A DNA stretch of 6,589 nucleotides from an uncultured Actinomycetes bacterium (lineage in GTDB: Bacteria > Actinomycetota > Actinomycetes > Nanopelagicales > Nanopelagicaceae), in NCBI GenBank assembly GCA_903907665.1, contig CAIVOW010000192.1:1-6589 (forward strand). The letters are read 5' to 3'. How positions within the stretch are numbered: position 1 is the first letter of the stretch; every line of letters starts with the position of its first letter. Shown here piece after piece: positions 1 to 6,444 of the stretch. Under the pieces are notes generated by a model that worked only from the letters and a program-made list of their open reading frames with translations, was not told where the DNA came from and searched no databases. Both the position numbers and the translations under genes were made by a program.

Positions 1-47
1 CCAAGAATATTTGCGAGAACCCACAGTGAGTGAGTATTGGAATCCAT
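1..47 (-). CDS. Start of a fourth small membrane-protein-like gene (partial, runs off left edge)
   Basis: Seen: reading leftwards from an ATG at 47-45 there are 15 open codons, giving MDSNTHSLWVLANIL, before the window ends. An AGGAGG lies at 56-61, eight bases before the ATG, inside the last codons of the preceding gene, whose stop is only 4 bases upstream. That spacing matches the rest of the operon. The segment SLWVLANIL resembles the start of the small membrane protein at 559-813 (SLWGVGNLI: S, L, W, N and an aliphatic residue in the same order). Inference: it is a further paralogue of the small membrane proteins and the operon continues leftwards. The remainder cannot be seen, so length and fold are unknown. 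It could equally be a larger membrane protein. Confidence 0.6.
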   Translation of the reverse strand, partial: MDSNTHSLWVLANIL

Positions 48-51
48 CTTC

Positions 52-306
52 TCAACCTCCTAGTTTCTTGCGGCCACGATTAAGTCCGGCAACAATCGCT
101 GTGGCATATGCGATCGTTGTATTAAGACCTTTAAGGCCGGCTGTGTTAACAACTGCGCCTTCAAGTCCGGCATTAATTCTTTGAGCCTGGCCACCAATTT
201 TGTGAGCCAGCAAAAGGATTGGGACCACGAGAGCTACGACAACAAGTACAACAACTGTTGCAATGATGTAGCCCACGAGCCAACCTGGGTGATTAGTAAA
301 GTCCAT
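52..306 (-). CDS. Small single-pass membrane protein C (84 aa), downstream of coxG
   Basis: I do not recognise a named family. Seen: 84 residues; an N-terminal hydrophobic segment at about residues 9-34, rich in Val, Leu and Ile and ending in a Pro and a Leu run; then an amphipathic region with AGLEGAV at about 46-52; and a basic tail with NRGRKKLGG at the end. The SD GGGGGAG precedes the ATG, and the gene starts 13 bases after the stop of its neighbour. It is the third of three consecutive genes with the same plan (short N-terminus, one membrane helix, about 45 residues after it with a Leu-(Glu/Ser)-Gly-(Gly/Ala)-Val motif). Inference: the three are diverged duplicates that act with the membrane side of the CODH system, such as an anchor, a scaffold or a quinone-access module. 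Topology cannot be fixed by eye, but the basic C-terminus would fit a cytoplasmic tail. Confidence 0.8.
   Translation of the reverse strand: MDFTNHPGWLVGYIIATVVVLVVVALVVPILLLAHKIGGQAQRINAGLEGAVVNTAGLKGLNTTIAYATAIVAGLNRGRKKLGG
56..61 (-). promoter_or_regulatory. Strong ribosome binding site for the left-edge gene
   Basis: AGGAGG on the minus strand, eight bases before the ATG at 47. It is embedded in the final Leu-Gly-Gly codons of the upstream small membrane protein gene. It is the main evidence that the partial frame at the left edge is a real, translationally coupled gene. Confidence 0.6.
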
Positions 307-319
307 CTGTTATCTCCCC

Positions 320-547
320 CTAGATCGTTTCTGCAAAATCGCGTACTGGCTTGAGGCTAGCGTTTACTGATTTAACAACGCTAGGAACCGTCGCTGTCTT
401 TGCGACAATTACTTGCACTCCACCTTCAAGTGCATCAAGAGATTTAGTTACTGCACGCAGGTGCAAGATAACGCGTGATAGGCCTAGCGCTGCGGCAGCG
501 ATAATTAACGTTGCCAGAATTAGCGTGTATACGGCTTGTTGTGCCAT
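320..547 (-). CDS. Small single-pass membrane protein B (75 aa), downstream of coxG
   Basis: No named family recognised. Seen: 75 residues, one hydrophobic segment at about 5-23 (Leu/Ile/Ala rich), then a basic stretch (HLRAVTK) and an amphipathic region. The region DALEGGV at 38-44, followed by T53, P55, K59 and N62, lines up almost without gaps with DALSGGV, T53/T54, P55, K60 and N63 of the neighbouring protein at 559-813, so the two are very probably paralogues. The SD AGGGG sits about nine bases before the ATG. The gene starts 11 bases after the previous stop and is followed 13 bases later by the next. Its role is unknown; the position points to a membrane component cooperating with CoxG and CODH. 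The overlapping plus-strand frames here have no SD or recognisable domain and are treated as shadows. Confidence 0.82.
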   Translation of the reverse strand: MAQQAVYTLILATLIIAAAALGLSRVILHLRAVTKSLDALEGGVQVIVAKTATVPSVVKSVNASLKPVRDFAETI

Positions 548-558
548 TTCGATTCCCC

Positions 559-813
559 TTATCCGAGTAACTTGGAAACTGGTCCGGCGTAACGAACTGC
601 CCCGTGGGCAACTTCTTTAATTACGTTATCTGTCTTTGCAAGCAAAGCTGGTGTTGTATCGAGTTCACCGATCAAGGCAACTCCTCCAGAAAGTGCATCA
701 TCTGCCGCACCGCGAATGCGCTCAAGTGGTCCAAGAACCATATTTAGCAGCGCAACGAGAACTGGGACGATTACAACTAACAGGATCAGATTTCCGACTC
801 CCCATAGACTCAT
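559..813 (-). CDS. Small single-pass membrane protein A (84 aa), directly downstream of coxG
   Basis: No named family recognised. Seen: 84 residues beginning MSLWGVGNL; a strong hydrophobic segment at about 6-28; a charged linker (LERIRGAADD); the motif DALSGGV at 39-45; and a helix-prone tail through K60, N63 and K66 ending in KLLG. The SD AAAGGA lies about seven bases before the ATG, and the start is 20 bases after the coxG stop. The part after the membrane helix aligns with the next gene's product and less well with the third. The general look (one N-terminal membrane helix, then an amphipathic helix) recalls DUF948-like small membrane proteins, but I cannot assign that. Inference: it is a subunit of a membrane platform for CODH or CoxG, because CoxG is the protein known to bridge CODH to membrane quinone in studied actinobacteria. 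Confidence 0.82.
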   Translation of the reverse strand: MSLWGVGNLILLVVIVPVLVALLNMVLGPLERIRGAADDALSGGVALIGELDTTPALLAKTDNVIKEVAHGAVRYAGPVSKLLG

Positions 814-833: not shown

Positions 834-1421
834 TTAGCGACGTGGTGCTGGTTGATATGGAAGGAAGAAGCGAGCAAAAATTCTTGCTGCTGCTTTCTTT
901 ACGACTGTCATTGCGATTGCGATCCCGCTTGCAGCCTTTGGGCCACCAACAGTGTTTGGATCAATTCCCATGGAGATTGCCTTCATGCGCGCTTGCATGC
1001 TGCCGGCAGTTTGATTAACTAAAACTGCGGTGACATCTGCGATTAATCCGCGGCCGAACTGTGCCGCAGCTCCTGAAACGACTAGATCGAGGGAGATTTT
1101 TACTGAAGTGCCACCGGCTACTGGATTAAGCGCTGCTATAAGGACTGCCTGCGCCTCGCCGCGGCCTTTCTTATCAGAACCCGATGCGTTGATAGTGATG
1201 ATCTTCTTGGCGGTATCGCGATTTTCGACCTTTGCCTGACCGGAAAATTCTAGCTTTACTGGTCCCGCAGAGATGATTACATCTCCACTGTAATGATCTT
1301 CAGCCATTTTATCCGTTAGGTCAGCACCAGGAATACATGCTGCCACTTGTGGAATGTCATAAAAGAATTGCCACACATCGTCGATCTGTTGATCAACAAC
1401 TATCGTCTGCGAGATTAGCAT
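834..1421 (-). CDS. coxG: CoxG, SRPBCC-fold CODH membrane/quinone partner (195 aa)
   Basis: Known for the family: CoxG proteins have a START/SRPBCC-type lipid-binding fold. In studied bacteria CoxG recruits CODH to the membrane, and in mycobacteria it is reported to shuttle menaquinone between the membrane and CODH. Seen: residues 1-145 fit the domain, with VWQFFYDIPQVAACIPGA at about 16-33 (the Pro-Gly-Ala turn typical of CoxG) and the segments YSGDV, VKLEFSG and KGRGEAQA. Residues 163-188 form an apolar, weakly basic helix (AIAMTVVKKAAARIFARFF) ending PYQPAPRR, which fits a membrane-binding C-terminal tail. The length of 195 residues is in the usual range. The ATG overlaps the stop of the upstream XdhC-type gene by 7 bases and has an AGGAGG four bases before it, so start and coupling are well supported. 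Three small membrane proteins follow. Confidence 0.92.
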   Translation of the reverse strand: MLISQTIVVDQQIDDVWQFFYDIPQVAACIPGADLTDKMAEDHYSGDVIISAGPVKLEFSGQAKVENRDTAKKIITINASGSDKKGRGEAQAVLIAALNPVAGGTSVKISLDLVVSGAAAQFGRGLIADVTAVLVNQTAGSMQARMKAISMGIDPNTVGGPKAASGIAIAMTVVKKAAARIFARFFLPYQPAPRR

Positions 1422-2377
1422 TTTGCCTCCTGGTTGATGAATGACGATGGATCTTTTTCAAACGCTGTGCGACATCCAGGCGCACAGAAGTAATAGGTCG
1501 TTCCTTCATATTCGAAGGGACGATTAGATTTTTCAGCAGCGACGGTCATGCCGCAGACCAAATCAATTACCTCAGTTGGTTGCACCATCTGAAGCAGATT
1601 TGGTGTCGCCTTTGGAGTTAGCGCACCGGCAGCACGTAGTTGAACTAATTGCGCCAGAATAGAAACGGCCATTTCACGGTGAGTTGTATGTCCAAGATCT
1701 AGACCTGCTGGCAATTGAACTGTGTCGATCTTACTTTTCGAGAAACCGCGGTCTTCTAAGTAAGAAAGAACTGCAGCTCCACGTTTACGCGATGCAACGA
1801 CGCCGAGATAGACCGGTTCTGCTGGAAGTGCTGTTTCAGTTGCTTCTTCATCGCCATGACCTTGCGTAGCGATAATCACAACTGAGGAAGAGTCGACCAT
1901 AGATGTTGTGAAATCGGCAAAATCCATAATCTGTACTCGCCAATTCATAACTTCAATTAACTGCTTCAGAGTAACTGCCATAGGCGAGCGCCCGACGATA
2001 GTTACTTGAGGAGATGCATTTACTGGTTCAACGTAAATCTGAAGTGCGCCTTCGCTTTGGCATGCCATCGGAACTGTTAGAACTCCATCCGGAACATGCA
2101 TTCCTAGAAAGTCCGCTTCTTGTCCGAGCCAAACCAATTGAGCTTTTCCGGATTCCATTACCTTCTTTGCTTCACGGATTAGGACTGGCTCGGCACACGC
2201 TCCGCCAATCCATCCATGTAACTTTCCATCAGAGGTAATTAGAGCGCGAGAACCGCTCTGTCCAGAAGAAGGGCCTTGGCGCCAAACGACAGTCGCCATC
2301 ACAAAAGATTCACCACTATTTGTGAGTTCGACTGCGCGTTCCATGACGCCCATGCCTTCTAATGGATTGAAAGACAT
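1415..2377 (-). CDS. XdhC/CoxI-family molybdoenzyme maturation factor fused to a C-terminal YHS domain (320 aa)
   Basis: Known: XdhC-family proteins (CoxF and CoxI in cox clusters) bind molybdenum cofactor and help its sulfuration and insertion into xanthine-dehydrogenase-family enzymes. YHS domains are short Cys-rich metal-binding modules found in copper and heavy-metal proteins. Seen: an N-terminal XdhC/CoxI domain at about 10-75, with QGPSSGQSGSRALI and the typical GWIGGACAEP (C61); a Rossmann-type XdhC C domain at about 123-240, with VTIVGRSPMA, VVIIATQGHGD, YLGVVASRKRG and PAGLDLGH; then a YHS domain at 271-313 with VCGM (C275) and YYFCAPGC (C298, C302). The coxL stop is 2 bases upstream, with only a distant GGAG, so translation probably couples to coxL. 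The fusion suggests one protein handling both the Mo cofactor and a thiophilic metal, possibly the copper of the Mo-Cu site. The metal role is inference; the family call is firm. Confidence 0.9.
   Translation of the reverse strand: MSFNPLEGMGVMERAVELTNSGESFVMATVVWRQGPSSGQSGSRALITSDGKLHGWIGGACAEPVLIREAKKVMESGKAQLVWLGQEADFLGMHVPDGVLTVPMACQSEGALQIYVEPVNASPQVTIVGRSPMAVTLKQLIEVMNWRVQIMDFADFTTSMVDSSSVVIIATQGHGDEEATETALPAEPVYLGVVASRKRGAAVLSYLEDRGFSKSKIDTVQLPAGLDLGHTTHREMAVSILAQLVQLRAAGALTPKATPNLLQMVQPTEVIDLVCGMTVAAEKSNRPFEYEGTTYYFCAPGCRTAFEKDPSSFINQEAKC
1426..1431 (-). promoter_or_regulatory. Ribosome binding site of coxG inside the upstream gene
   Basis: AGGAGG on the minus strand lies in the last codons of the XdhC-YHS gene, four bases before the coxG ATG. 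That ATG overlaps the TAA of the upstream gene (ATGCTAA). The arrangement fixes the coxG start and implies translational coupling. Confidence 0.7.
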
Positions 2378-2379
2378 TC

Positions 2380-4761
2380 TTAGTTGCCGCTCCGTACCGG
2401 TGGCATACCGTAAACATCTTTTCCTGTTGTTAGAGCTTCGTATACACGGTTAGGCATCAAAGGCATATCGATATTGCGAACGCCCTTGTCCTTAAGTGCA
2501 TCCATAACCGCATTAACGAATGCAGCTGGTCCGCCCACAGTTGCGCATTCACCAACGCCTTTAGCACCGATTGGGTGGTGAGGGCATGGTGTAACAACTT
2601 CATAGAGCTCAAAGCCTGGAGTTTCCCAAGCAGTTGGCAACAAGAAGTCCATGTAATTTCCGCCGATGATATTTCCTTCTTCATCGTAAGTTTGATACTG
2701 CATATTTGCCATGGCATATGCCTCGGTTAGTCCGCCCATGATCTGTCCTTCAACGATCATTGGGTTGATACGGACACCGCAGTCATCGACAGCAACAAAT
2801 TGCAATACATCCCAAACACCTGTCTCGGGATCAATTTCAACCTTTGCAATGTAGCAAGCAAATGGCCATGTGAGGTTTGGAGGATCGTAGTAAGCGACAT
2901 TCTCCAGTCCAGGTTCCATTCCATCTGGCATATTGCTATATGCAGCCATTGCGCAATCTTGAATTGTTACGCCACGTTCCTGATTTCCACGAACGTAGAA
3001 ACGGCCCAACTCCCACTCGATATCTTCTTCAGATACTTCAAGTAAGTGAGCGGCAAGCTTGCGCGCTTTTGCACGAACCTTGCGGGCAACCATTGCAATT
3101 GCTGCTCCGGCTACTGGCGTTGAACGAGATGCGTAAGTACCCATACCGAATGGAGCGGTATCTGTATCGCCTTCTTCAACGAGAATGTCATCTGCAGGTA
3201 TACCGAGTTCGTGAGCAACGATCTGAGCCCAAGTAGTCTCGTGGCCAGTTCCCTGTCCACGTGAACCGGTACGCAAGATCGCTTTACCTGACATATGGAT
3301 ACGAAGTTCAGCAGAGTCAAACATCTTGATACCCAAGATGTCGTACTCGCGGCTATTGCCGGCGCCCAATGGTTCAGTCATTGTTGAAATTCCGATACCA
3401 AGCAGGCGTCCACGCTTTGCAGCCTCAGCCTTTTCAGCTGCAAAGTTCTTGTATCCGATTGCTTCCAATCCGATATCAAGGCACTTCTCGTACTGACCTG
3501 AGTCAGTTAGGAAACCAAATGCTGTGCGGTGTGGGTGCTGTTCGTCTTTAACGAAGTTAACGCGACGGAACTCGGCTTGATCCATACCAAGATCATCTGC
3601 GGCTGCTTGAACCATACGTTCTTGGAAGAACATCGCTTCAGTAACGCGGAATGAACAACGGTAGGCAACTCCACCTGGCGCCTTATTTGTGTAGTAACCA
3701 GTAGCAAACATATGCGCAGTTGGAATGTCGTAAGCAGCAAATGCTGAGTGCATCAGACCAATCTTGAACTTAGATGGCTGTGCATCCGCAAAGAATGCAC
3801 CGTGATCTGAAATTGTGTTCATACGAACACCAAGGATCTTTCCATCTTTACGAAGGGCCATCTCACCCTTTAGGTAGACATCGCGACCAAAGCCGGTTGA
3901 AGTTAGGTTACCGGTCTTATCTTCAATCCACTTGACAGGCTTTTCAGTCAAAATCGAAGCGAGAATCGCAACAACATAACCTGGATAGATAGGAACCTTA
4001 TTTCCGAAGCCGCCTCCAATATCAGGAGAAACGATGCGGATATTTTGTTCAGGAAGTTCTGCAACCATCGCAACTGCGGCACGCACAATATGTGGGGCCT
4101 GAGTTGTTAGGTAAACAGTCAGCTTGCCTGTTGCGCGATCGTAATCTGCAAGAGATCCACAAGTCTCCATTGGAGATGGATGTGTACGTGGATAGTGAAG
4201 TTCAATCTTTGACACAACATCTGCATCTTGGAAAGCCTTATCGGTGCGCGCCTTATCGCCGATTTCCCAGTCGAAAATCTTGTTTCCTACTTGGCCAGCT
4301 TTGTCATCGCGGATCTGAACTGCATCCGGTGCTGCTGCCTGAACTGGGTTAACGATTGGAGGAAGGATTTCGTAATCTACGACAATCTTTCCGCAAGCAT
4401 CTTTGGCGATATACGGGTCATCTGCAATTACTGCACAGACTTCTTGGCCTTGGAAGCGGACCTTATCCGTAGCAAGAACAGCTGCTGTGTCGTATGAAAG
4501 CGTTGGCATCCATGCCAAGTTACGTGCTGCCATCATCTCGCCTGTCAGAACCAGACGAACGCCAGGCATATCCCATGCTGCGCTTGTATCGATTGATTTG
4601 ATACGTGCGTGAGCTACTGGGCTACGTAAAATCTCCATGTGTAGCATTCCTGGAAGAACAATGTCATCTACATAATTGCCTTTACCGCGAATGAAACGGT
4701 TATCTTCAACTCGGCGACGGCTCGCGCCCATTCCACCAATTTTGACTTCGTCTAAGCTCAT
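2380..4761 (-). CDS. coxL: CoxL, large molybdenum-copper subunit of form I aerobic CO dehydrogenase (793 aa)
   Basis: Reaction: CO + H2O to CO2 + 2 H+ + 2 electrons at a Mo-S-Cu centre bearing molybdopterin cytosine dinucleotide (MCD), with electrons passed to CoxS. Seen: an aldehyde oxidase/xanthine dehydrogenase a/b hammerhead domain (about 20-135), then the molybdopterin-binding domain. The active-site loop AYRCSFR is at 366-372 with C369, the Cu-binding cysteine. This is the form I signature, as opposed to AYRGAGR in form II enzymes of other function. Other family landmarks are DIGGGFGNK (247-255), GQGTGHETTW (502-511), GMGTYASRSTPVAGAA (539-554), VDDCGVRINPM (658-668) and HHPIGAKGVGE (728-738), whose E738 is the catalytic-type glutamate. 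The length is near the usual 800. The SD GGGAG lies about nine bases before the ATG, and coxS ends 18 bases upstream. Variants: GQIMGG at 672-677, where many relatives have His in place of Met675, and GQGTGH, where QGQGH is common. Confidence 0.97.
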   Translation of the reverse strand: MSLDEVKIGGMGASRRRVEDNRFIRGKGNYVDDIVLPGMLHMEILRSPVAHARIKSIDTSAAWDMPGVRLVLTGEMMAARNLAWMPTLSYDTAAVLATDKVRFQGQEVCAVIADDPYIAKDACGKIVVDYEILPPIVNPVQAAAPDAVQIRDDKAGQVGNKIFDWEIGDKARTDKAFQDADVVSKIELHYPRTHPSPMETCGSLADYDRATGKLTVYLTTQAPHIVRAAVAMVAELPEQNIRIVSPDIGGGFGNKVPIYPGYVVAILASILTEKPVKWIEDKTGNLTSTGFGRDVYLKGEMALRKDGKILGVRMNTISDHGAFFADAQPSKFKIGLMHSAFAAYDIPTAHMFATGYYTNKAPGGVAYRCSFRVTEAMFFQERMVQAAADDLGMDQAEFRRVNFVKDEQHPHRTAFGFLTDSGQYEKCLDIGLEAIGYKNFAAEKAEAAKRGRLLGIGISTMTEPLGAGNSREYDILGIKMFDSAELRIHMSGKAILRTGSRGQGTGHETTWAQIVAHELGIPADDILVEEGDTDTAPFGMGTYASRSTPVAGAAIAMVARKVRAKARKLAAHLLEVSEEDIEWELGRFYVRGNQERGVTIQDCAMAAYSNMPDGMEPGLENVAYYDPPNLTWPFACYIAKVEIDPETGVWDVLQFVAVDDCGVRINPMIVEGQIMGGLTEAYAMANMQYQTYDEEGNIIGGNYMDFLLPTAWETPGFELYEVVTPCPHHPIGAKGVGECATVGGPAAFVNAVMDALKDKGVRNIDMPLMPNRVYEALTTGKDVYGMPPVRSGN

Positions 4762-4779: not shown

Positions 4780-5307
4780 CTAGTTGAGTTCCGCGCGCAT
4801 TTTTTCAGCAGCCCAGAGAACCGCCTTGACGATATTTTGGTAACCAGTGCATCGACACAAGTTGCCAGAAAGAGCCCAGCGAATTTCATCTTCGGTTGGG
4901 TTGAGATTCTCTTCGAGAAGCGCCTTAGCTGCCATCATCATTCCTGGAGTACAGAAACCGCACTGCAGCGCATGCTCTTGCTTGAAGCCTTCTTGCAATG
5001 GGTGGAGTTCGCTTGCAGATGCCAGTCCCTCAACTGTTTGCACATCATGGCCATCAGCCTGCACTGCGAACATTGTGCAACTCTTGATTGGGCGACCATC
5101 AAAAAGTACTGTGCAAGCGCCACAGTTAGTTGTGTCGCAACCTGTGTGAGTTCCAGTTAATTTAAATCCTTGGCGAAGCAAATGTGCGAGCAAGAGTCTT
5201 GGTTCAACATTTGCTGTGCGCGCTTCTCCATTTACATTTACCGTTACACGGCGAACCGGAATATCACTTGCCGGAGGCGTGTTTATTTCTTCATAAAGGC
5301 TCGACAT
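4780..5307 (-). CDS. coxS: CoxS, small 2x[2Fe-2S] subunit of CO dehydrogenase (175 aa)
   Basis: CoxS carries electrons from the Mo-Cu site of CoxL to the FAD of CoxM. Seen: an N-terminal plant-type ferredoxin domain (about 18-95) with C57, C62, C65 and C77 in the C-x4-C-x2-C-x11-C spacing, then an all-helical second cluster domain with [11 protein letters not shown] (C116, C119) and [11 protein letters not shown] (C151, C153). All eight ligands are present. The protein is about ten residues longer than many CoxS because of a short leader, [17 protein letters not shown], before the ferredoxin strand. No internal start codon would remove it. The gene begins 4 bases after the coxM stop with no clear SD, so translation probably depends on coupling to coxM. 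It ends 18 bases before coxL. Confidence 0.96.
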
Positions 5308-5311
5308 ATTT

Positions 5312-6181
5312 TTAGGCTACTTTCTGTGCGGAGTTGGCAACGAGGATTCTCTTAACAAACGTTTCAATGATGTGGCGCTTGTATTCGGCTGAGCCACGGT
5401 GATCTGTACGAGGCTCTGCCTTAGCAGCCACAAGTGCTGCCGCCTTTGCAATTGTTGCTTCGGTCAACTTCTGACCAATAAGCGCTGATGCTGCTTCGTT
5501 GGCGTCGATGGTCTTTCCACCAACACCAGCAAGTGCAAAACCTGCATTTAGAACTGTGTCACCGTTCATGTCCAGAGCCACCGCTACTGATGCAGTTGCG
5601 AAGTCACCGACGCGACGTTCTAGCTTTAGGTAGCCACCACGAGCAACACCTTTAGGGGCAGGAATTACCGCTTCGATAGCAATCTCGTTGTAGTTGAGAG
5701 AATTTGCATAAGGACCAAGTACGAAATCTTTCATCGCGATGGTGCGCTTGCCTTTAGGACCTTGAACAACGATCGAACCGTGTAGTGCGATCATGGTTGC
5801 GGCCCAGTCACCTTGTGGGTCAGCGTGACAAACAGATCCAACAAAGGTTCCACGTACGCGAACAATTGGATCTGCAACTAGTGGCGCTGCTGCGGCAATT
5901 GTTGGTTGGCGCTTTGCAATCTCTGCTGACTTTTCCAAATGTTCATGACGAACAAGGGCGCCAATGTGGAGTGACCCATCGGCATCAAAGCGGATGTAAT
6001 CAAGGTCAGGAATATTGTTGATATCGACAATTTGATCTGGGAATGCAAAACGAAGTTTTAGCATTGGAACAAGGCTCTGTCCGCCTGCCAATACCTTCGC
6101 CTCACCCTTGCCAGCATCGAGCAATTTAATTGCTTCCGCAATTGTCTTCGGAGATTCATATTTAAATCTTGATGGATACAT
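5312..6181 (-). CDS. coxM: CoxM, FAD-binding medium subunit of CO dehydrogenase (289 aa)
   Basis: CoxM holds FAD and delivers CO-derived electrons to the quinone pool. Seen: the FAD-binding domain of the molybdopterin dehydrogenase family covers about 1-175, with the first FAD loop AGGQSLVPM at 32-40 (AGGHS/AGGQS type), [13 protein letters not shown] at 52-64 and [10 protein letters not shown] at 74-83. The second loop reads [17 protein letters not shown] at 110-126, where the classic CoxM form is RGTIGGNLAHADP. The C-terminal CO dehydrogenase flavoprotein domain (about 180-285) contains [21 protein letters not shown] and ends in the usual helix after SAEYKRHI. The length is normal for the family. 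The ATG has an AGGGG SD about nine bases before it and starts 29 bases after the preceding small gene. The stop is 4 bases before coxS. Confidence 0.95.
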
Positions 6182-6210: not shown

Positions 6211-6444
6211 TTACTTGCTCTTCTTGTCTTTTACTGCAACTGGCATTGAATCTGCATCTGGGTTAGGACGTGGTTCTTGGTGTGCCGGCCATGGACCTTG
6301 CACCGGTTGACTTGCTACTTTTAAAAATTCTGTAATTTGTGGCCATGCCCAAATCGTTGGGCTGTCGCCAGTCTTTGGTGAGTTTTCAATGAGTTCAAAT
6401 AAACGAGGATTGCCGCGTTCATTTCCTGTAGATTCAACGACCAT
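6211..6444 (-). CDS. Pro/Trp-rich small protein of unknown function, first gene of the cox operon (77 aa)
   Basis: I recognise no family. Seen: 77 residues, no membrane segment or signal peptide. It starts MVVESTGNERGNPRLFELIE, followed by IWAWPQITEFLK at about 31-42, a proline-rich stretch with QGPWPAHQEPRPNPD (49-63), and a short basic tail (VKDKKSK). There are no cysteines or histidine clusters that would suggest metal binding. The ATG at 6444 has AGAGGG six bases before it, and coxM follows 29 bases later in the same direction, so it is likely co-transcribed with the CODH subunits. The overlapping frame at 6321-6503 starts at TTG and lacks such a site. Inference: an accessory or assembly protein, or an extra small subunit, of CODH. 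A regulatory role or a spurious frame is possible but less likely given the SD, the position and the protein-like composition. Confidence 0.68.
   Translation of the reverse strand: MVVESTGNERGNPRLFELIENSPKTGDSPTIWAWPQITEFLKVASQPVQGPWPAHQEPRPNPDADSMPVAVKDKKSK

Follow-up and report, generated by a model that had tools for sequence, protein, structure and literature searches.

The DNA analysed here (the window) is a stretch of 6,589 nucleotides from an uncultured bacterium of the Nanopelagicaceae. It carries an operon for carbon monoxide dehydrogenase (CODH) and, directly behind coxG, a row of small genes. What do these genes contribute to the operon, and do they belong to CODH alone? The original prediction saw in them an array of three tandemly duplicated genes, the products of which could form a membrane platform for CODH.

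The cox operon and its small genes

All genes of the window considered here are on the minus strand, in the order 77-aa ORF, coxM, coxS, coxL, coxI-like gene, coxG, A, B, C and the start of D. They comprise coxM for the FAD subunit (5312..6181; PF00941, PF03450), coxS for the 2Fe-2S subunit (4780..5307; PF01799, PF00111), coxL for the Mo-Cu CODH large subunit (2380..4761), a coxI-like gene for an XdhC protein (1415..2377; PF02625, PF13478, PF04945) and coxG (834..1421; PF06240, 59.5 bits). The operon was expected to be of form I, which we defined by a CoxL with the motif AYXCSFR and a TIGR02416 score above the cut-off, and by the order coxMSL. This assignment was confirmed: CoxL of the window carries AYRCSFR and scores 1100.8 bits with TIGR02416 (cut-off 991.15), and the genes follow in the order M-S-L, with I and G behind them. 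The top relative of this CoxL in the PDB is the CoxL of 8uem (958 bits), and CoxG matches the CoxG of 8uds (73.5 bits). In the CoxL tree the closest locus comes from Candidatus Nanopelagicales (L001), whose CoxL is 99% identical to that of the window. The coxI-like protein bears a YHS domain at its C-terminus. The 77-aa ORF that opens the operon and precedes coxM (6211..6444) has no Pfam or NCBIfam match; with 46 ORF matches at E<=1e-3 across the 80 loci described below, it represents a further unnamed conserved small protein linked to cox.

Behind coxG follow the three consecutive genes noticed originally, A (559..813, 84 codons), B (320..547, 75 codons) and C (52..306, 84 codons). The spacers in front of them measure 20, 11 and 13 nt, and each start is preceded by a purine-rich, Shine-Dalgarno-like stretch. 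The protein encoded by A ends in GAVRYAGPVSKLLG. The array, however, comprises five genes and not three: D starts at position 47, and its first 15 codons (1..47; MDSNTHSLWVLANIL) reach the edge of the window, while E lies outside it and is found after D in relatives. A scan of genome contigs with an alignment of A yielded 80 loci, in which gene calls outside the window were made with a simple custom caller. A-B-C-D-E is complete, in fixed order and on one strand behind coxG in 73 of these loci, and the remaining seven are cut by contig ends (L024, L030, L031, L038, L059, L079, L080). The tight linkage proposed to coxG and form I coxL is thus found as well: of the 78 loci that bear A, 77 have coxG directly upstream of this gene, the exception (L043) beginning at a contig edge, and CoxL is matched with more than 150 bits in 67 of 80 loci. 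Five assemblies (L003, L025, L043, L063, L075) have titles such as Rubrivirga, Streptomyces griseus, Bifidobacterium breve and Nocardiopsis that clash with an actinobacterial cox locus, and look misbinned or mislabelled.

The lengths of the proteins are almost constant, 84 aa for A in 77 of 78 loci and 75 aa for B in 78 of 79. D has about 91 aa and a C-terminal GLEHHLFLGRVLxKVRS; E has about 120 aa with the stretches TGGVVAGALPLLYGMAE and RPAMGTRRSR, and the two genes overlap by a median of 4 nt. Homologues at E <= 0.01 number 2401 proteins for A, 749 for B and 1223 for C (the best 120 listed in each case), and the dN/dS ratios of A, B and C against seven relatives are 0.00-0.14. A, B and C are therefore maintained genes under selection and not chance frames, as had been argued from their layout.

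Partners of the module across Actinomycetota

The wider distribution was determined in 296 genomes of Actinomycetota. A profile of A (A4) found 35 places in 31 genomes, six of them at 136-150 bits and the others at 26-76 bits. Eleven places are form I cox contexts and 13 adjoin [NiFe]-hydrogenase structural genes; another five are beside hydrogenase maturation or protease genes, and six have neither in the stretch read. Across this phylum sample the homologues are hence mostly away from cox genes, an outcome that was to speak against the original prediction. Yet they lead to another trace-gas enzyme, and this strengthens the idea of a platform. Divergent B, C, D and E are present around many of the 35 places, and after two rounds of model refinement they could be separated, giving five families. 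Members of the five are recognisable alongside the CODH clade of the window, a second clade of form I CODH, and [NiFe]-hydrogenases related to HofG/Hhy.

In the second cox clade (L111, L113, L163) C-D-E-A-B is followed on the same strand by coxM-S-L, with about 5 kb of other genes in between in L163. An association with molybdenum hydroxylases in general was rejected, as AYRCSFR is present in the large subunits of L111 and L113, and that of L163, labelled form I, has the same motif. Strict specificity for CODH was rejected because of the hydrogenase loci. Four of these (L114-L117) have the order small subunit-C-D-E-A-B-large subunit, and in several others CDE is head to head with the small-subunit gene; L119 has C-A-D-E and no B. 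Very divergent sets, which are hard to assign, adjoin another hydrogenase of the module class in L155-L157, L160 and L162. The two large subunits that were tested are nearest to HofG of R. eutropha in the PDB (5aa5; 466 and 518 bits, the next matches having 174 and 172 bits).

Profile matches at E<=1e-3 were obtained in 31 genomes for A, 33 for D and 35 for E. When marginal matches are set aside (D in G034 and G196, E in G117 and G159), A and D occur together in 29 genomes, and the genomes with E are exactly the 33 of their union, so that 33 of the 296 genomes carry the module. A form I CoxL above the cut-off or a HofG-like large subunit is present in 31 of these 33 genomes as against 35 of the 263 others (Fisher test, 2.6e-21, with genomes treated as independent and kinship ignored). 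In G216 CDE adjoins a small-subunit gene; G258 has neither enzyme.

The module is not a constant companion of either enzyme. CoxL exceeds the TIGR02416 cut-off at 44 places in 42 genomes, of which 12 have cox-linked module genes, including G172 with A only and G194 with the module on a contig that bears coxG and not coxL. In 16 others the form I cox neighbourhoods, some of them cut by contig ends, contain none of A-E, and among the last 14 genomes, judged by searches with A, D and E only, one (G022) has the module. No A-E genes were found at L125 and L126, the genomes of which have the module at another cox locus.

For the hydrogenases the distribution follows the class of the enzyme. Of the 296 genomes, 38 have a HofG-like large subunit. 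The best match reaches at least 51% identity to the enzyme of L115 (class I) in 15 of them, and A is present in all 15; in 23 the matches reach only about 39-44%, and A is present in three, two of which (G108, G129) have the module at housekeeping sites. Ten canonical HofG/Hhy neighbourhoods (L145-L154, some cut by contig ends) contain no A-E. The canonical locus L142 of G105 likewise has none in reach, a cox-linked module (L163) lying about 24 kb away on the same contig. In the large-subunit tree the 18 non-canonical rows are set apart by a branch with full support; among them the large subunits of L100 and L106, on a long branch of their own, may represent a third lineage. Small subunits have the motif SCDGC in 23 of 23 rows of the module class (L100-L119, L155-L175) versus SCDGD in 10 of 10 canonical rows (L142, L145-L152, L154), which points to a different cluster ligand. 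None of 18 small subunits of the module class has a Tat motif by a simple pattern test.

The module-bearing loci form two groups in the CoxL tree, the clade of the window and the separate clade of L111, L113 and L163, and the presence of the module requires three changes in this tree, a number that falls to two without L127, the contig of which stops short of the site. The concatenated tree of A-E sets the second cox clade apart with full support; the support on the hydrogenase side is 91/74.

Parts of the module without either enzyme in the stretch were seen in G108, G129, G172, G258 and for one copy in G269. At these sites AB or A is beside gltX, lhr or an M41 protease gene, and CDE or E is beside a gene for a DsbH-domain protein or a penicillin amidase. 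Pfam was run on the enzyme-free stretches L092, L095, L097, L166 and L169, the others being judged from gene sizes; the neighbours in L092 and L095 are housekeeping genes. A split module recurs at housekeeping sites: AB in L094, L097 and L102 lies by gltX/serA genes (Pfam on L097, the others from gene sizes), and CDE or E is found in L165, L166, L168, L169 and L173, with CDE flanked by a penicillin-amidase gene on one side and, on the other, a gene for a DsbH-domain protein of about 1600 aa (as shown by Pfam for L169 and judged from gene sizes for the rest). A was not found in plasmid records.

Shape and relationships of the five proteins

Each of A-E has one transmembrane (TM) helix near the N-terminus, as had been proposed for A, B and C; the architecture of B and C is like that of A. 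With a loose threshold, a second hydrophobic stretch is called in 7 of 29 E sequences and 1 of 31 B sequences. On average 0.0-0.2 lysines and arginines precede the TM helix and 1.9-3.1 follow it, and more of them are behind than before it in 35 of 35 sequences of A, 30 of 31 of B, 29 of 30 of C, 31 of 31 of D and 27 of 29 of E. This enrichment suggests an N-out/C-in topology. Behind the TM helix, the column-averaged hydrophobicity of A, B, C and E has a periodicity of 102-106 degrees, near the heptad angle, while that of D peaks at 148 degrees, away from it. AF2 monomer models give a single helix for A (residues 3-83, mean pLDDT 83) and for E (residues 3-85, mean pLDDT 74), both with low values at the C-terminus, and thus the prediction for each of A and E is an unbroken helix of about 80 residues.

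The broad alignments A9-A13, which cover both the cox and the hydrogenase systems, contain no invariant or nearly invariant histidine or cysteine. Within the cox clade of the window, B keeps one histidine behind the TM helix and D two near the C-terminus. Cytochrome b-type hydrogenase anchors have conserved pairs of haem-ligating histidines in their TM helices, and A-E were rejected as such anchors, since no histidine or cysteine is conserved across both systems.

Paralogy was assessed with hhalign on the broad profiles A9-A13, with 40 column shuffles per pair and half-reversed profiles as controls. The probabilities are 99% for B-E, 98% for C-D, 97% for A-D and 96% for A-C; between these groups they are 86-87% for B-C, 70% for B-D and 29-43% for C-E, and they drop to 3-7% for A-B and A-E and 4% for D-E. 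No shuffle reached the real score for eight pairs, and one of 40 did so for B-C and for D-E. Reversed profiles gave 68% for C-D and 33% for B-E, where the real scores are far higher, but outscored the real profiles for A-B, A-E and D-E. After removal of the TM part B-E retains 98%, A-D 90%, C-D 85% and A-C 64%, while B-C drops to 25% and B-D to 1%. The similarity that beats the controls and persists without the TM part supports two groups of paralogs, A-C-D and B-E; a link between the groups, resting mainly on the TM part, is possible. C-D is also clear with narrow profiles built from cox loci only (97.5%), and cross-matches of the divergent families are mainly B/E, C/D and A with D or C. The paralogy originally suggested for A, B and C therefore holds for A and C, which fall into one group, and not for the pair A-B, the almost gapless relation of which was not recovered: this pair beats all shuffles and scores below its own reversed control, so a tandem duplication of A and B was rejected.

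A known, unrelated family could have accounted for the small proteins, and none fits: neither Pfam nor NCBIfam gave a match above the cut-off for A, B or C. DUF948 (PF06103) is matched weakly by some members of E, D and C, in all cases below the level of membership. In the E set (A13) 7 of 19 members have sub-threshold matches with a best E of 0.0015, and in the D set (A10) the best E is 0.0069; for the A set (A9) the Pfam scan lists no DUF948. The family was rejected for C of the window (13.8 bits, cut-off 37.2). SecG, a label that one source gives to some homologues of C, was rejected as well (11.1 bits with a cut-off of 29.2 and 14.8 bits with a cut-off of 30.85). Against PDB chains, the A profile has weak unrelated matches only, and searches with A, D and E gave no fitting chain, only weak matches or matches to coiled coils. 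Among those of the E profile are designed coiled-coil barrels, a similarity that may be an effect of composition. A description of the cassette was not found in the titles, abstracts and passages of the literature searched, most subscription papers being out of reach. What is new here is the unnamed protein families; the membrane coupling of soluble respiratory enzymes is of a kind already known.

Larger proteins of about 180-270 aa occur in threes after or near the module (L093:2956-4868, L103:5355-7259, L163:13983-16365, L104:11828-13901, also L097, L100 and L106). They have a TM helix and long heptad-like repeats rich in I and N/D, and all 14 that passed the filter bear a cysteine near the C-terminus. 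Because of weak similarity to the C/A, E/B and D/C profiles, they are perhaps longer relatives of the module proteins.

Proposed role and alternatives

CODH and the hydrogenases both oxidise a gas present in air and deliver the electrons to respiration. Their folds differ, and so do their cofactors, Mo-Cu with FAD and 2Fe-2S in CODH versus Ni-Fe with Fe-S clusters in the hydrogenase. Both partners look cytosolic: no signal is visible at the start of CoxM, CoxS or CoxL, and the Tat result for the small subunits is given above. As the two enzymes differ in metal site and have maturation genes of their own, a shared module would point to the delivery of electrons to respiration; the lack of a shared cofactor type in enzymes that both feed respiration likewise favours docking to the membrane, or coupling to quinone, over maturation.

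The module is probably a shared device that ties trace-gas enzymes to the respiratory membrane. In the reading we prefer, with a probability of about 0.58, A-E would constitute a helical membrane platform or stalk that docks cytosolic CODH or hydrogenase and brings menaquinone to the enzyme. The helices of A-E would assemble into a hetero-oligomeric bundle in the membrane, and a stalk or barrel would arise from their amphipathic parts in the cytosol. Cytosolic CoxMSL, or hydrogenase subunits that lack a Tat signal, would dock on this bundle, which would bring menaquinone from the bilayer to the electron exit site of the enzyme, and in cox systems A-E would act together with CoxG in this delivery. 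With no cysteine or histidine conserved across both systems, A-E would serve to guide quinone or to position the enzyme rather than carry electrons; five long helices that face the cytosol and lack such residues most likely dock the enzyme and offer a path for quinone. Of these two functions docking is likely, and the chances that the module guides quinone are about even. The membrane platform suggested for CODH has thus become the likeliest role, but not as an array for CODH only, since the hydrogenase contexts imply that a scaffold dedicated to CODH would explain only part of the picture. A more specific version is tentative: an unnamed coupling device in which five TM proteins build a hetero-oligomeric alpha-helical barrel, and which is swapped between CODH and [NiFe]-hydrogenase and delivers menaquinone to enzymes that would otherwise be soluble, with three longer coiled-coil relatives in some lineages.

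The preferred platform has an analogue in HucM of the group 2a [NiFe]-hydrogenase Huc of M. smegmatis. According to passages of PMC10017518, HucM forms a membrane stalk; it is one protein of 188 aa, a tetramer, with the stalk peripherally associated with the membrane, and four helices make up a hydrophobic tube able to hold menaquinone. In both cases long amphipathic helices would link a trace-gas oxidase with the membrane, the menaquinone path of A-E being a candidate, whereas one peripheral tetrameric protein, as portrayed in these passages, stands against five small proteins that each have a TM helix. The module appears to be analogous to HucM and unrelated to it in the profile searches run with A, D and E: against all PDB chains at E<=1, no Huc chain (7utd, 7uur, 8dqv, 7uus) was among all eight matches of A, all seven of D and the best 60 of 88 of E.

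The strongest competitor of the platform with a quinone path is a docking scaffold only, the helices of which would anchor or cluster the enzyme, and CoxG where present, while quinone comes to the enzyme by another way, for example through CoxG alone. The anatomy and the linkage fit it equally, and A-E offer no redox ligand conserved across both systems. In addition, CoxG is present in cox loci, and passages of PMC13240472 describe it as delivering electrons to the quinone pool, as a menaquinone-binding partner. CoxG resembles A-E as a CODH-linked factor from the same operon, directly before A; it belongs to PF06240, of which the Pfam scan found no match in A-C of the window or in the A, D and E sets. 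We regard the scaffold as unlikely, because five distinct co-inherited proteins exceed the needs of a simple anchor and because the 13 hydrogenase stretches keep the module with no CoxG match at E 1e-5 within these stretches.

Less probable still is a membrane-bound factor for assembly or maturation of these enzymes. Five matches of the A family adjoin hypD/E, hypF or HycI-type protease genes and the cox loci contain a coxI-like gene, yet the separate metal sites and maturation genes of the partners argue against it, as do the position of the module between structural genes in L114-L117 and the existence of related enzymes without it. That A-E are general envelope or stress proteins of a DUF948-like kind, with the linkage to cox and hydrogenase a by-product of clustering, would agree with the weak DUF948 matches and the few loci beside housekeeping genes, but is very improbable given coxG directly upstream of A in nearly all loci, the association with two unrelated respiratory enzymes and the second cox clade set apart in the module tree.

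Other accessory genes are known from high-affinity hydrogenases. HhyE and HucE, and hhaABC in Hhy operons, resemble A-E in this position (passages of PMC6883350 and PMC6776052). In the same passages HucE and HhyE are putative Fe-S proteins with a proposed role in electron transfer; A-E, in contrast, have no cysteine conserved across the families. HhaABC were compared with A-E by description only, and so were two hypothetical membrane-protein genes in a related hydrogenase operon, that of Hyd-1h of Methylacidiphilum, which are said, in the portion of the source consulted, to be absent in Actinobacteria.

How electrons leave Huc and Hhy was called unresolved in passages of PMC6883350 (2019). For the cytosolic high-affinity oxidases of CO and H2, the route into the respiratory chain is outlined for Huc, through HucM, and for CODH it is attributed to CoxG. 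With a module common to CODH and hydrogenase, this route gains concrete candidate genes and the question becomes testable; aquatic and soil Actinomycetota would be expected to couple such enzymes by the same principle. If the module is indeed a coupling device, it would enable small-genomed aquatic actinobacteria and their soil relatives to live on trace gases.

A divergent set in the order A-E-C-D-E (L176:8060-9302) precedes two Proton_antipo_M genes of an Mrp/Mbh-type antiporter, one of which also carries MnhB, MbhD and MbhE domains, and the same contig bears a hydrogenase of the module class about 42 kb away from the set. An antiporter of this type is a possible further partner of the module.
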